From: Spirosoma fluviale
GTDB taxonomy: Bacteria > Bacteroidota > Bacteroidia > Cytophagales > Spirosomataceae
Reading direction: 5' to 3'
Length of the DNA stretch: 64,000 bases
NCBI RefSeq assembly: GCF_900230225.1
Contig: NZ_OCNH01000007.1
Coordinates: forward strand, 1 to 64,000
The translations under genes were made by a program, and so were the position numbers. Under the pieces are notes generated by a model, which worked only from the letters and a program-made list of their open reading frames with translations, searched no databases and was not told where the DNA came from. This document shows positions 31,085 to 63,504 of this stretch, in pieces (within the stretch, counting starts at the first letter, position 1; every line of letters begins with the position of its first letter).

Positions 31085-31104
31085 AGCCGTCTATCTTGGT
31101 CTCA

Positions 31105-31254: not shown

Positions 31255-32313
31255 ATGCCGCTGATTGCCCCATCAAGTTATGAGCCGCCTATCCGGTTAT
31301 GGAACGGCCACCTGCAAACCATCATTCCCTCGCTGTTTCGCAAGGTACAGGTTACCTACGTCCGCGAACGCATCGAAACCCCGGATGATGATTTTCTGGA
31401 TTTGGATTGGGGTTTTTCTTTAGGAGTTAGGAGCGAGGAGTTAGGAGTGAGGAGGGCTGACGCGTCAGCAACTCCTCACTCCCGGAACGCCGGCCGCTCG
31501 CTCCTAACTCCTAACTCCTCCCTTATCATTCTCTCCCACGGGCTGGAGGGGAGTTCCACCAGCTCTTACTTAGCGGGGATGGTTCGGCAGTTGACAAAAC
31601 ACGGGTTCGACTGTCTGGCCTGGCATTACCGCTCCTGTAGTGGCGAGTTAAACCGGCAGCAACGGTTTTACCACATTGGCGAAACGGGCGATTTACACTT
31701 CATCATTCAACACGCCCTCTCGAAAGGCTACCAGACTATTTACCTCATGGGGTTTAGCGCTGGCGGCAACGTCACCTTAAAATACATTGGTGAACAGGGA
31801 CAGGCGCTGCATCCGGCAGTAAAAAAAGCCGCTGTTTTCTCCGTACCCGTTCATTTGATGGGCTCAGCCAGTCGGCTCGAACGATGGGACAGCCTGGTCT
31901 ATAATTATCGGTTTAATCGCACCCTTAAACGAAAGATTTTGCAGAAAGCGTCGCTGATGCCGGGGGTTTTCCCAACCGAAGCGGTAACCAAAGCCCGTAA
32001 TATTCGTGAATTCGACAACCTGTTTACGGCACCGATGAATGGATTTAAGGACGTAACCGACTATTACACGCGAAGCAGCTCATTACAATTTATACCAGAC
32101 ATTGCCATTCCAACCTTGCTCGTGAACGCCAAAAATGACCCGTTTCTATCGCCCGAATGTTTTCCCGAAGCGTTGGGCAGGGAACTACCCAACGTCTGGA
32201 TGGAGTTTCCGGTACAAGGTGGTCACTGCGGCTTCCCGTCCCGGAAAGAAGGAATTCAGGGCACGTACTGGTCGGAAGAGCGGGCGTTGCAATTTTTGAC
32301 AATCACGAACTAA
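31255..32313 (+). CDS. YheT-type alpha/beta hydrolase with an in-frame repeat insertion
   Basis: A 352-aa hydrolase of the YheT/ABHD1-3 group. It opens with PPIRLWNGHLQTIIPSLFR and DDFLDLDW, then ILSHGLEGSSTSSY (oxyanion block), GFSAGGN (nucleophile elbow) and a final GGHCGF with the catalytic His. Residues ~56-90 do not belong to the family. They are encoded by an inverted array of 7-base units (31421-31522) that adds 34 codons without a stop, placed between the DLDW block and the first core strand, a loop position that may tolerate it. ATG 31255 is supported by the promoter element. Confidence 0.88.
   Translation: MPLIAPSSYEPPIRLWNGHLQTIIPSLFRKVQVTYVRERIETPDDDFLDLDWGFSLGVRSEELGVRRADASATPHSRNAGRSLLTPNSSLIILSHGLEGSSTSSYLAGMVRQLTKHGFDCLAWHYRSCSGELNRQQRFYHIGETGDLHFIIQHALSKGYQTIYLMGFSAGGNVTLKYIGEQGQALHPAVKKAAVFSVPVHLMGSASRLERWDSLVYNYRFNRTLKRKILQKASLMPGVFPTEAVTKARNIREFDNLFTAPMNGFKDVTDYYTRSSSLQFIPDIAIPTLLVNAKNDPFLSPECFPEALGRELPNVWMEFPVQGGHCGFPSRKEGIQGTYWSEERALQFLTITN
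31421..31522. repeat. Inverted array of 7-base units inside a coding region
   Basis: The left arm has GAGTTAG, GAGCGAG, GAGTTAG and GAGTGAG units (31424-31454). A 14-base palindrome, GCTGACGCGTCAGC (31456-31469), follows. The right arm has the complementary CTCCTCACTCC and CTCGCTC, CTAACTC, CTAACTC units (31471-31521). Total 102 bases, a multiple of three. Confidence 0.85.
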
Positions 32314-32379: not shown

Positions 32380-34284
32380 ATGCTCACCAAACCACTCGAA
32401 CAGACGTATTACATCATTGATTTCGACAGTACCCTTACAAAGGTAGAAGCGCTTGACGTGCTGGGCGAAATCTCACTCACTGGTCGGCCCGACCGGGATG
32501 ATGTGCTGAATGAAATCAAGATAATCACCGACCGAGGAATGTCGGGAGAAATTTCGTTTACCGATTCACTCAAGCTACGGCTGCACCTGCTGAAAGCCCA
32601 TAAAAGTCAATTACCCGCCCTGATCGAAACCCTCATGGGAAAAATTTCGGATTCCTTTCAGCGGAACAGGCAATTTCTGTCCGAGAATGCCGACTCGATC
32701 TATATCGTTTCCAATGGGTTTAAGGAGTTTATCGTCCCTATTGTCACGTCGTTGGGCATTCATGCGGAGAATGTGTTTGCCAATACGTTCGAGTTCGATG
32801 AGAGCGGGGCTATCGTGGGATTCGACGCTCAAAACCCACTCTCGGCCAATGGCGGCAAATCGCAGGTGATCCGCAACCTGCACCTCGATGGCGAAGTGTA
32901 CGTCATTGGGGATGGTTATACCGACTACGAAATCAAAGCCTCTGGTCTGGCCAATCGCTTTTATGCGTTTACGGAAAACGTGATGCGCCCTCGCGTGGTG
33001 GAGCACGCCGATCACGTAGCGCCTTCGCTCGATGAGTTTTTGTACCACAACAACCTGAGCCGCAGCCAATCGTACCCGAAAAGCAGGATTAAAGTGCTGC
33101 TTCTGGAAAACGTTCACCCAAATGCCATTCAACTGTTTGAACAGGAAGGGTTTAACGTGGAAATTCGCAAAGGTGCGCTGGATGAAGATGAACTGATCGA
33201 AGCCATCCGCGACGTATCTATTCTGGGTATTCGGTCCAAGACCAATGTAACCGCACGCGTACTGGAACATGCCAATAAACTGATGACCATTGGTGCGTTT
33301 TGCATCGGCACCAATCAGATTGACCTCGACGCCTGCACCGAAAAAGGCATTGCCGTTTTCAACGCCCCCTACAGTAACACCCGCTCGGTGGTGGAGTTGG
33401 CCATCGGCGAGATCATCATGCTGATCCGCAGCATTGTGCCCAAGAGTAACTTGATGCACAAGGGCGGCTGGGACAAATCAGCGAAAAACAGCTTTGAGGT
33501 ACGGGGCAAAAAACTCGGCCTGGTGGGCTATGGCAACATTGGCACCCAACTATCGGTTGTGGCCGAAGCTCTGGGCATGGAAGTGTATTTCTACGACGCC
33601 GTCGACAAGCTGGCGCTGGGAAATGCCCGCAAATGTAAATCGCTGGACGAACTGCTGTCCATTTCGGACATCATCAGTCTGCATACTGACGGCCGGAAGG
33701 AAAACAAAAACCTGATCAGCTACCGCGAATTCGGGCTGATGAAAAACGGCGTCATCTTCCTGAACCTGTCGCGCGGGCATATCGTGGATATTCCGGCGCT
33801 GGTCGACGCCATTGAGCGGGGTAAGGTTGCCGGTGCGGGTGTCGACGTGTTTCCGTACGAGCCGAAGACAAACAACGAAGAGTTCATGAGTGCACTGCGT
33901 AACCTGCCCAACGTGATTTTGACGCCCCACATCGGCGGCAGCACGGAGGAGGCCCAGGCGAACATTGGGAGCTTTGTGCCGGGCAAACTACTCGAATACA
34001 TCAACAATGGTAGCACCTACGGCAGTGTCAACTTCCCCGAGCTGCAACTTCCGCTGTTGAAAGGGGCGCACCGCCTGTTGCACATTCACGCCAACGTTCC
34101 GGGTATTCTGGCCAACATGAACACCATCTTTGCCAAGTATCACATCAACATTCACGGCCAGTACCTCAAAACCAATGAGAAAATAGGCTACGTAATTACC
34201 GACGTTGCCAAAGAATACGCCGACGAAGTGGTGGAAGAACTGAAAGGCATCGACAACACGATCAAATTCCGACTGCTGTACTAA
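32380..34284 (+). CDS. serA: Phosphoserine phosphatase-phosphoglycerate dehydrogenase fusion
   Basis: A 634-aa two-enzyme protein for serine synthesis. Residues ~8-215 are a HAD phosphatase like SerB: DFDSTLT (motif I), IVSNGF (II), GGKSQVI (III) and GDGYTDYE (IV). Residues ~230-555 are D-3-phosphoglycerate dehydrogenase: the NAD motif GLVGYGNIGTQ (~380), NLSRGHIVD and the catalytic His in TPHIGGSTEEAQ (~515). The last ~70 residues form an ACT domain (IHANVPGILANMNTIF) that probably senses serine. The two activities are the first and last steps of the pathway; the middle step is encoded next door. Confidence 0.95.
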   Translation: MLTKPLEQTYYIIDFDSTLTKVEALDVLGEISLTGRPDRDDVLNEIKIITDRGMSGEISFTDSLKLRLHLLKAHKSQLPALIETLMGKISDSFQRNRQFLSENADSIYIVSNGFKEFIVPIVTSLGIHAENVFANTFEFDESGAIVGFDAQNPLSANGGKSQVIRNLHLDGEVYVIGDGYTDYEIKASGLANRFYAFTENVMRPRVVEHADHVAPSLDEFLYHNNLSRSQSYPKSRIKVLLLENVHPNAIQLFEQEGFNVEIRKGALDEDELIEAIRDVSILGIRSKTNVTARVLEHANKLMTIGAFCIGTNQIDLDACTEKGIAVFNAPYSNTRSVVELAIGEIIMLIRSIVPKSNLMHKGGWDKSAKNSFEVRGKKLGLVGYGNIGTQLSVVAEALGMEVYFYDAVDKLALGNARKCKSLDELLSISDIISLHTDGRKENKNLISYREFGLMKNGVIFLNLSRGHIVDIPALVDAIERGKVAGAGVDVFPYEPKTNNEEFMSALRNLPNVILTPHIGGSTEEAQANIGSFVPGKLLEYINNGSTYGSVNFPELQLPLLKGAHRLLHIHANVPGILANMNTIFAKYHINIHGQYLKTNEKIGYVITDVAKEYADEVVEELKGIDNTIKFRLLY

Positions 34285-34290
34285 ATTTTG

Positions 34291-34360
34291 ACTGAGTGAC
34301 TGAGTGAATGAGCCAATTGTATCGACGAGCCCATTCACTCATTCATTCATTCGCTCATTC
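34291..34360. repeat. Inverted array of 8-base units between serA and serC
   Basis: Left: ACTGAGTG twice, then AATGAG (34291-34312). Right: CATTCACT, CATTCATT, CATTCGCT, CATTC (34332-34360), the inverted counterpart. It fills almost all of the 80 bases between the two genes and ends four bases before the serC ATG. Confidence 0.85.
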
Positions 34361-34364
34361 AAAA

Positions 34365-51441: not shown

Positions 51442-51516
51442 GTTGTAGTACCGACCGTCCCGGTCGGGTGGAAAACAGTTGGATACACGCCCGACCGGGA
51501 CGGTCGGCACTACAAC
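51442..51516. repeat. Paired GC-rich palindromes after gudD
   Basis: A 29-base segment at 51442-51470 has an inverted copy ending at 51516 with two mismatches. Each copy contains its own palindrome, CCGACCGTCCCGGTCGG (51451-51467 and, inverted, 51491-51507). A third, degraded copy is at 53153-53165 beyond the IS. It may act as terminator for the gudD operon. Confidence 0.75.
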
Positions 51517-55129: not shown

Positions 55130-55208
55130 AGAAGGAGTAATTTTAAAGGGAGTCAAACGCCATATCTTAAGAATATGGCGTTTGACTCCCTTTAAAATTA
55201 CTCCTTCT
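55130..55208. terminator. Very long perfect stem-loop between convergent genes
   Basis: Perfect 36-bp arms (55130-55165 and 55173-55208) around a 7-base loop. It begins seven bases after the SplB-like stop and ends nine bases before the M13 peptidase stop. It is far longer than an ordinary terminator but well placed to end both transcripts. Confidence 0.85.
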
Positions 55209-58409: not shown

Positions 58410-59687
58410 ATGAAGAAAATGTACCTGCTGGCCGGCCTGTCGCTGCTGGCCGCTCCCCTGTTTGCCCAACGCACGCTGATTCACTGCGGCAACCTCTTCG
58501 ACGGCATCAATAACAATGTCCAGCCGCAAATGACGGTTGTGGTTGAAGGCAACAAAATTACGGCCGTTCAGAAAGGGTACACGACGCCCGCCGGGCAGGA
58601 TCGGGTGCTGGATATGAAATCGAAAACGGTTCTGCCCGGCCTCATCGACATGCACGTACACCTCGAAAGCCAAACTCGCCGGGGTGGTGCTATTGATGGC
58701 TTTACAAAGAACCAGGCCGATGTGGCCTATCAGGCGGCTCAATATGCTAAAACAACGCTGATAGCCGGCTTTACAACGGTTCGTGATCTGGGTGGCTCGG
58801 GCGTTAACGTCTCCCTTCGCAACGCCATCAATGCCGGGCTGGTCGATGGTCCCCGCGTATTGACCGTTGGAAAATCCATTGCGACAACGGGTGGCCATGC
58901 CGATCCAACGAACGGCTACCGCAAAGACCTGATGGGCGACCCCGGCCCAATGGAAGGGGTTATCAATGGCCCCGAAGATGCCCGTAAAGCGGTGCGGCAG
59001 CGGTACAAAGACGGCTCCGACCTGATCAAGATTACGGCGACTGGTGGCGTATTGAGCAATGCCAAAGATGGCTCCGGTGCTCAGTTTACCGAAGAGGAAG
59101 TGAAAGCGGTTGTCGATGCCGCCAGGGATTATGGCTTTCCGGTGGCGGCCCACGCCCACGGTGCGGAAGGGATGAAACGCGCCATTCGGGCGGGTGTACA
59201 AACCATCGAGCACGGAACGCTGATGGATGATGAAGCGATTGAGCTGTTCAAGAAATACGGCACCTATTACGTCCCAACGATCATTGCCGGTAAAACAGCG
59301 GCTGATTCAGCCCGGCGTTTCGGCTATTACCCGGCGCTGGTAACGCCCAAAGCACTGGCCATTGGCCCCAAAATTCAGGCGACGTTTGCCAAAGCGTACA
59401 AAGCGGGCGTGAAGATTGCCTTCGGTACCGATGCGGGTGTTTACATCCACGGGTACAACGCCAAAGAGTTTGAGTACATGGTCGAAGCGGGTATGCCCCC
59501 ACTCGAAGCGATCAAAGCGGCTTTGATGACCAACGCAAAGTTATTGGGTATGGACGCCCAGATTGGCTCCATCGAAACCGGCAAAATGGCGGACATCATC
59601 GCCGTAAGCGAAAACCCCCTTCAGAACATCAAAACCCTGCAAGCCGTCCAATTCGTCATGAAAGACGGAAAGGTGTATAAGCAGTAA
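58410..59687 (+). CDS. Metal-dependent amidohydrolase (imidazolonepropionase-like), exported
   Basis: A 425-aa amidohydrolase with a signal peptide (MKKMYLLAGLSLLAAPLFAQ). Metal ligands: HVHLE (~residue 82), Lys in LIKITATGG, HAHG (~250), HGTLMDDE (~270) and GTDAG (~345). The family includes prolidase-like and Xaa-Arg peptidases, so peptides are a possible substrate. The last codons (KQ and stop) lie in a 7-base repeat array shared with the convergent gene. Confidence 0.9.
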   Translation: MKKMYLLAGLSLLAAPLFAQRTLIHCGNLFDGINNNVQPQMTVVVEGNKITAVQKGYTTPAGQDRVLDMKSKTVLPGLIDMHVHLESQTRRGGAIDGFTKNQADVAYQAAQYAKTTLIAGFTTVRDLGGSGVNVSLRNAINAGLVDGPRVLTVGKSIATTGGHADPTNGYRKDLMGDPGPMEGVINGPEDARKAVRQRYKDGSDLIKITATGGVLSNAKDGSGAQFTEEEVKAVVDAARDYGFPVAAHAHGAEGMKRAIRAGVQTIEHGTLMDDEAIELFKKYGTYYVPTIIAGKTAADSARRFGYYPALVTPKALAIGPKIQATFAKAYKAGVKIAFGTDAGVYIHGYNAKEFEYMVEAGMPPLEAIKAALMTNAKLLGMDAQIGSIETGKMADIIAVSENPLQNIKTLQAVQFVMKDGKVYKQ

Positions 59688-59787
59688 GCAGTAAGTAGTT
59701 AAGTAGTAAGTAGTAAGTGGCTGGCCCAAGCAAAATACATGCGTCAGCCACTTACTACTTACCACTTGGCAACTTACCACTTATTAT
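59681..59787. repeat. Inverted array of 7-base units overlapping two gene ends
   Basis: Left: GCAGTAA twice, GTAGTTAA, GTAGTAA twice, GTGGCTG (59681-59722). Right: CAGCCACTTACTACTTACC, then further CTTACCACTT units (59746-59787). The amidohydrolase stop (59685-59687) is in the left array, and the hydrolase stop plus its last eight codons are in the right one. Confidence 0.85.
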
Positions 59788-63388: not shown

Positions 63389-63396
63389 TATAATGT

Positions 63397-63439
63397 GGTT
63401 GGTAAGTGAGTAAGTGGTAAGTGGGTACACCAACTTACC
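63397..63439. repeat. Short array of 7-base units in the uxuA/exuT divergent region
   Basis: GGTAAGT, GAGTAAGT, GGTAAGT and GGGT units (63401-63425), then the inverted ACCAACTTACC (63429-63439). The units resemble those of the array at 59681. It begins nine bases upstream of the uxuA ATG and lies in its 5' leader. Confidence 0.7.
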
Positions 63440-63504
63440 GACTAAATAAGGTAAAAAAGCACTCCCATCTCCTTTTCTCCCCAAAACTCCTGGTTGTTTT
63501 GCAA

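Follow-up and report, generated by a model that had tools for sequence, protein, structure and literature searches.

An in-frame heptamer palindrome array in a hydrolase gene of Spirosoma fluviale and the apparent exchange of repeat families at shared hairpin sites

Introduction

Palindromes within genes have usually been reported as insertions of one repeat family in one species. As described in PMC3733652, Rickettsia palindromic elements (RPEs) are palindromic repeats that lie in frame in conserved genes and are retained in the protein. The same paper describes repetitive extragenic palindromes (REPs) tagged with GTAG or CGTC, which prefer gene ends and of which many are intragenic, notably in repair genes, with uvrA a recurrent target; at roughly one position of recB, the REPs of two Xanthomonas species differ. 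We analyzed 64,000 nucleotides of Spirosoma fluviale (assembly GCF_900230225.1, contig NZ_OCNH01000007.1, positions 1 to 64,000 of the forward strand), hereafter the window, in which the gene of a YheT-type alpha/beta hydrolase contains an inverted array of 7-base units, and compared the site of this array and other hairpin sites with those of related species.

Cyanobacterial short tandemly repeated repetitive sequences (STRRs) are tandem 7-bp units that are dispersed in the genome and mostly intergenic. Heptamer repeats of the TAACTGA type occur in Beggiatoaceae, Cyanobacteria and five Bacteroidetes, a few of them inside open reading frames (ORFs) (PMC4679880). PMC3686654 reports different REP classes beside orthologous genes for REP-associated tyrosine transposases (RAYTs) at syntenic places in related strains, and PMC6649704 reports strong inverted repeats inside working coding genes of Nematomorpha mitochondria, both arms of which encode conserved residues.

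The Spirosoma palindromes resemble RPEs in being in frame in several conserved genes of one genome (those for the hydrolase, UvrA and MiaB), a likeness of placement. They differ from RPEs in having arms composed of heptamer units that are particular to each species, in occupying a site that is common across species and at which the family changes, and in belonging to a host among the Bacteroidetes. Like REPs, they can be intragenic (uvrA included), lie at gene ends and differ at the same site; unlike REPs, which are tagged palindromes of 20–40 bp, they are longer, have units of 7–9 bases, lack a transposase link and are exchanged at many sites. Tandem 7-bp units dispersed in the genome are shared with TAACTGA and STRR-type repeats, but the Spirosoma units are inverted around a core, belong to many families and lie in frame in conserved genes at common sites. 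The exchange differs from that of RAYT-flanking REPs in concerning hairpin sites generally, coding loops included, and the array differs from the Nematomorpha palindromes in being a variable, dispensable-looking loop. Intragenic REPs and heptamer repeats are already known; same-site family swapping at many orthologous sites, coding and intergenic, looks new, and in the open-access literature searched we found neither a description of heptamer palindromes in Spirosoma nor one of general family exchange at orthologous hairpin sites.

Results and Discussion

The hydrolase gene lies on the plus strand at positions 31255 to 32313 and encodes 352 amino acids plus a stop. Its product matched NF008218 (E 1.8e-62, 211.5 bits, under the curated cut-off of 267) and both PF12146 and PF00561 above their cut-offs. 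The TTG start at 31096 proposed by the ORF finder is unlikely to be the true one, because all 28 aligned relatives begin with M-P-L at the ATG at 31255. The array (31421–31522, residues 56–90) stands between the conserved blocks DFLDLDW (31390–31410) and LIILSHGLEG (31522–31551). It is 102 nt long, a multiple of three, and has no stop in the hydrolase frame. Its 5′ arm (31420–31454), given a period of 7 by a tandem repeat finder, consists of five units (TTAGGAG, TTAGGAG, CGAGGAG, TTAGGAG and TGAGGAG), and direct reading of the sequence showed that the unit in the stop phase reads CGAGGAG and not TTAGGAG. The central 14-mer, GCTGACGCGTCAGC (31456–31469), reads identically on both strands and is found at a single place in the window, with a core motif that recurs in many other genomic copies. 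The 3′ arm (31497–31519) is complementary to the 5′ arm, and the outer arms (31420–31437 and 31497–31514) are 100% complementary. The predicted RNA fold of 31405–31540 had an energy of −72.9 kcal/mol (z −7.9), equalled by 0 of 200 shuffled sequences. The description in the first-pass annotation of a stop-free, in-frame inverted array of 7-base units around a 14-base palindrome was thus borne out. A role for the coding array as a terminator or structured RNA was considered and is not favored: the array lies within a conserved reading frame, many coding hairpins are weak, and Rfam gave no match in the window at the gathering score.

The two conserved blocks are separated by 42 residues in S. fluviale, by 14 in the array-free genomes G015 and G017 and by 18–21 in others, which indicates a net gain of about 21–28 codons and an array that makes up nearly the whole loop. 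The annotation had placed the array correctly between the conserved blocks, and its figure of 34 added codons exceeds this net gain. An AlphaFold2 model built from 29 sequences (mean pLDDT, the predicted local distance difference test score, of 70.4) has the inserted residues as coil between strands 47–53 and 89–94, which correspond to the two conserved blocks, with pLDDT below 50 at residues 64–73 and 75–84, and the array-bearing loop is disordered in this model. A search of the PDB matched only two sequences, those of 8hea and 8g0n, both serine hydrolases, with alignments that begin at residue 86 or 90.

The array belongs to a family of hairpins dispersed through the S. fluviale genome (G000; 7.8 Mb in 18 contigs, with the window on contig C17). 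An 18-base unit pattern, allowing at most 2 mismatches, matched 121 + 108 times, versus 17 + 12 times for its reversed control. From 47 loci of this genome picked for arrays, 40 distinct hairpins of the GGAG family were isolated. In many of them, TTAGGAG-type units lead into TT or GG plus GCTGACGC and, across a loop, GCGTCAGC is followed by the units' complements; several terminate in AGTATTA...TAATACT. At two loci (L255 and L262) a second palindrome is nested exactly at the center of the GGAG array.

Open frames of at least 100 codons contained 4 of the 40 GGAG hairpins, and three of the 40 are in-frame copies in conserved genes, namely those for the hydrolase, UvrA (L259; 1046 bits to TIGR00630, cut-off 730) and MiaB (L246; 430 bits to TIGR01574, cut-off 355), the last read in S. 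fluviale. The fourth, in a 108-codon frame (L267), was discounted. Among the remaining 37 hairpins, any of the six frames was open in only 9, with a mean of 0.35 open frames compared to 1.30 in shuffled sequences, so the coding copies are a filtered minority. As judged from sequence, these data support a dispersed short-period palindromic repeat having turned into protein sequence in the hydrolase, UvrA and MiaB, in agreement with the earlier proposal of an outcome like that of RPEs reached by a different build (heptamer arms and a small core). The three further arrays that had been noted near 34291, 59681 and 63397 are present, although the statement that such arrays are always intergenic or at gene ends fails genome-wide with the in-frame copies in uvrA and miaB. 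The UvrA gene of S. fluviale (L259, G000:C7:84400-88500) has one more array in frame, belonging to the AGTKAAR type, in a second loop after VQIEDIL; an array similar to it was found in that loop in G015, with ordinary linkers in most other species read.

The hydrolase is present in all 36 Spirosoma genomes, with linkers of 14–58 residues, and a script assigned a repeat family to the linker in 20 of the 36. These were GGAG (G000, G009), AATGGAT (G001, G007, G021, G022, G032), GGGC (G014, G035), AGTKAAR (G003, G011, G016), AGTKAYC (G024), GATGAAT (G006, G010, G033) and CAGYCAR (G004, G005, G023, G027). Several species, such as G015, G017, G008, G020, G018 and G012, have short ordinary linkers. 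Among 30 named loci that were read, inverted arrays were present in the hydrolase linkers of Larkinella punicea and L. humicola, and the linker of Fibrisoma has GGGGCAT-like units. The UvrA loop, which was read in 30 of the 36 genomes and typed in 21 (the script missed the loop in G008, G011, G020, G024 and G031, and a full locus was not extracted for G028), is likewise occupied by other heptamer families in other species. A parsimony count on a tree of 36 rows, from whose construction these loops were left out, required at least 11 family changes for the hydrolase and 10 for UvrA. Because many species carry unrelated heptamer families at this position, the main event at the hydrolase loop would be repeated replacement at a tolerant site and not a one-off insertion. 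Of the earlier interpretation, the dispersed repeat that became protein stands, and the simple insertion or expansion does not. Residues 56–90 are not universal among orthologues, and the range of linker lengths in the genus shows that array length is not constant.

Two other repeat kinds were seen in such linkers. The hydrolase linker of Larkinella knui (L173) contains an in-frame palindrome with GGACACCTACACCTGTCAGGTTTTGAAAATCTGACAGGTGTAGGTGTCC, and the linker of a hydrolase paralogue (L167, G025:C644) contains three perfect 15-base tandem copies in frame, encoding (AVQPG)x3.

Each array might have been born locally, by slippage and template switching at its own site with no spread between sites. 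Small differences do exist among the units of an array, and arrays vary in how many units they have: between G001 and G021 the hydrolase loop differs by 21 bases, or three units. However, many copies per genome share the unit, the core and in part the outer ends, and we consider this origin very improbable; as a sole cause, local slippage was rejected, the cores being dispersed through the genome.

In many genomes the hydrolase loop also held the family prevalent in that genome. Seven family patterns were counted in the 36 genomes, of which G012, G018 and G025 had few matches to any of the seven, and were compared with the loop types by permutation of labels. Among the 20 typed hydrolases, 14 had in the loop whichever of the seven families ranked first by abundance in the genome (permutation mean 3.6; 0 of 20,000 permutations as high), and a weaker match was obtained for UvrA (8 of 21 typed; permutation mean 3.4, p 0.003). 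Three independent pairs for the AATGGAT hydrolase type agreed with expectation (mean 2.9 of 3), as did 2.3 of 4 pairs for AATGGAT in UvrA, with 0 opposed. Several points weigh against the replacement of loop arrays by resident families. The seven patterns were derived from the loops themselves, the counts include the few matches of the linkers, and kinship remains in the permutation; kinship-corrected association tests have too few pairs, such that among those listed none can reach significance. The loop family was not the top one in 6 of 20 genomes for the hydrolase (G003, G004, G005, G016, G023 and G027) and in 13 of 21 for UvrA. G004 and G005 hold few further copies of their own loop family, and the genome of G019 has no match elsewhere to the family of its UvrA array. 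For GATGAAT, 2 pairs agree and 1 opposes. Three of the script's hydrolase types look wrong by eye, with G027 having decayed GGAG units like its sisters, G016 being GATGAAT-like and G023 having no array. Finally, no heptamer array was observed by eye within 1.5 kb on each side of the 8 matches to Y1_Tnp in the S. fluviale genome, and no mobilising enzyme has been linked to the arrays.

This last result bears directly on whether RAYT-type (Y1, REP-associated) transposases mobilise the arrays, as they do with REPINs (REP doublets forming hairpins). GGAG or GTAG, which resemble the REP tag, are present in the array units, and the genome has Y1 genes, one of which (L236) is flanked by GTAG-type palindromes. 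Yet most Y1 loci bear palindromes of their own, as judged by eye, and mobilisation of the arrays by these enzymes seems unlikely to us. GGAG or GTAG sits inside the paired array units and not as an unpaired end tag. At one Y1 locus (L234, G000:C8) GCTGACGC/GCGTCAGC motifs occur on both sides of the transposase gene within GGGGCTGACGCAGTGCGGG-like repeats, an arrangement whose excess over chance could not be established. The window itself has a GTAG-type REP pair (TGTAGTACCGACCGTCCCGGTCGGG) at 51442–51516, and the same palindrome flanks the transposase gene of L236; this pair has the look of a classical REP system that exists alongside the heptamer arrays.

Intergenic hairpins were also compared between species, and they behave like the coding loops. 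Within 126 kb, gaps with a hairpin in S. fluviale retained one in 10 of 13 cases in G009 and 9 of 15 in G027, versus a hairpin in the relative at only 2 of 26 and 1 of 32 gaps that lack one in S. fluviale. The retained gaps had unrelated sequence in 5 of 10 cases relative to G009 and in 4 of 9 relative to G027. In addition, 7 of 9 loci in G009 partnered with S. fluviale array loci have a GGAG hairpin with altered units, a set picked for arrays and so giving no unbiased rate. In S. telluris and S. arboris, whose matching blocks are 83% identical, a hairpin was retained from the former to the latter in 12 of 16 hairpin gaps versus 4 of 25 gaps without one, and in 9 of the 12 retained pairs the similarity did not exceed that of hairpins taken from mismatched sites. 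In the opposite direction the result was weaker (10 of 15 versus 6 of 21; 6 of 10 pairs unrelated).

With G022 as a third species, 17 S. telluris hairpins were mapped, and at 12 sites, the hydrolase loop included, all three species have a hairpin. Read by eye, these 12 comprised 2 sites that kept one family, 7 at which one species differs and 3 at which all differ. For 8 of the 10 swapped sites, the flanks on either side can be aligned in both other species to a point no more than 15 bases from the hairpin, and in 2 to the base; old copies therefore leave little trace. Two sites (153061 and 183127) have a hairpin in S. telluris but in neither of the others, so the formation of new sites continues as well; site 153061, of interest for a comparison with miniature inverted-repeat transposable elements, is empty in two relatives.

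Two alternatives are serious rivals for part of this picture. One is selection on structure alone, in which any strong hairpin at a gene end serves in termination or RNA stability, hairpins arise or insert independently with their sequence free to vary, and the coding copies are bystanders. In S. fluviale, hairpins were present in 8 of 9 and 10 of 12 of the mapped gaps between convergent genes, which they favor, but in just 1 of 9 and 1 of 11 of those between divergent genes, and occupied gaps retain a hairpin far more often than empty ones gain one, both as this alternative would have it. It does not account for the match with the resident family, however, and the same exchange takes place in coding loops, where a terminator would harm. 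Moreover, many coding hairpins are weak, folding at z < −2 against shuffled sequences having been found for 9 of 21 typed UvrA loops (0 of 9 untyped) and for 16 of 20 typed hydrolase loops (4 of 16 untyped), a pattern that fits arrival as a strong hairpin followed by decay in coding DNA. As a full account, selection on structure appears doubtful to us.

The other is tolerance alone, with insertion at random, survival of selection in a few loops and gene ends, repeated hits without any attraction by hairpins, and decay and disappearance of old copies. The predicted disorder of the hydrolase loop and its variable length are in keeping with this, as is the appearance of new sites. Against it are the closely aligned flanks of the swapped sites and the rarity with which hairpin-free gaps are occupied in other species, although this is less marked from S. 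arboris to S. telluris. We regard tolerance alone as a real possibility that falls short of probable.

Based on these observations, the arrays are probably neutral or selfish palindromes of the REP/RPE kind that are tolerated in loops and at gene ends, with sites that persist and occupants that are replaced. We infer that these elements are mobile, that a hairpin already in place draws in its successor, and that the added residues are made as protein with little effect on fitness. The hydrolase insert would be an in-frame copy of a resident dispersed palindrome, with a GCTGACGC/GCGTCAGC core between arms built from 7-bp units, and would be tolerated in the disordered loop between two strands because its length preserves the frame and its stop-prone unit is a stop-free variant. 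Such palindromes would spread and would last at the ends of genes and in a small number of protein loops, where occupants may be exchanged in place, often for a palindrome family abundant in that lineage. The exchange might proceed through insertion that targets hairpins and is accompanied by loss of the former copy, or through breakage of the hairpin and repair by copying another hairpin. More tentatively, and with the idea perhaps more apt to be wrong than right, we speculate that hairpin sites are inherited slots, in which a long hairpin, coding or intergenic, provokes its own replacement by an unrelated hairpin copy abundant in the genome.

A hairpin scan of 400 kb of the window's contig identified 62 hairpins with a score of at least 15, versus 0 in one shuffled copy; it was used in place of a strict-threshold period-7 scan, which gave 2 regions in 400 kb, the hydrolase array not among them. 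Within the window, a related array of period 8 (34286–34364) follows the end of the ORF at 32380–34284, with a different hairpin at this site in G027. In the array at 59678–59786, which is made of TAAGTAG units, the core is GGCTGGC/GCGTCAGCC; G009 has similar arms and a larger palindrome there, and G027 an unrelated hairpin. A shorter inverted array of TGGTAAG units (63393–63447) has weaker arms that are 80% complementary. The hairpin at 55130–55208 has a tip, ATATGGCGTTT, that is identical in S. fluviale, G009 and G027, and a lower stem that differs yet stays paired.

Conclusions

One tolerant loop, followed across 36 genomes, preserves for many of these a record of the palindrome family that prevailed there, and shows that protein loops can take in new sequence repeatedly with the reading frame kept. 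If hairpin sites are indeed inherited slots, then when the dominant family of a lineage changes the slots would follow, including those in the loops of working proteins. The unrelated hairpins between alignable flanks in sister species make the spread and loss of REP-like palindromes, and succession guided by hairpins, testable.
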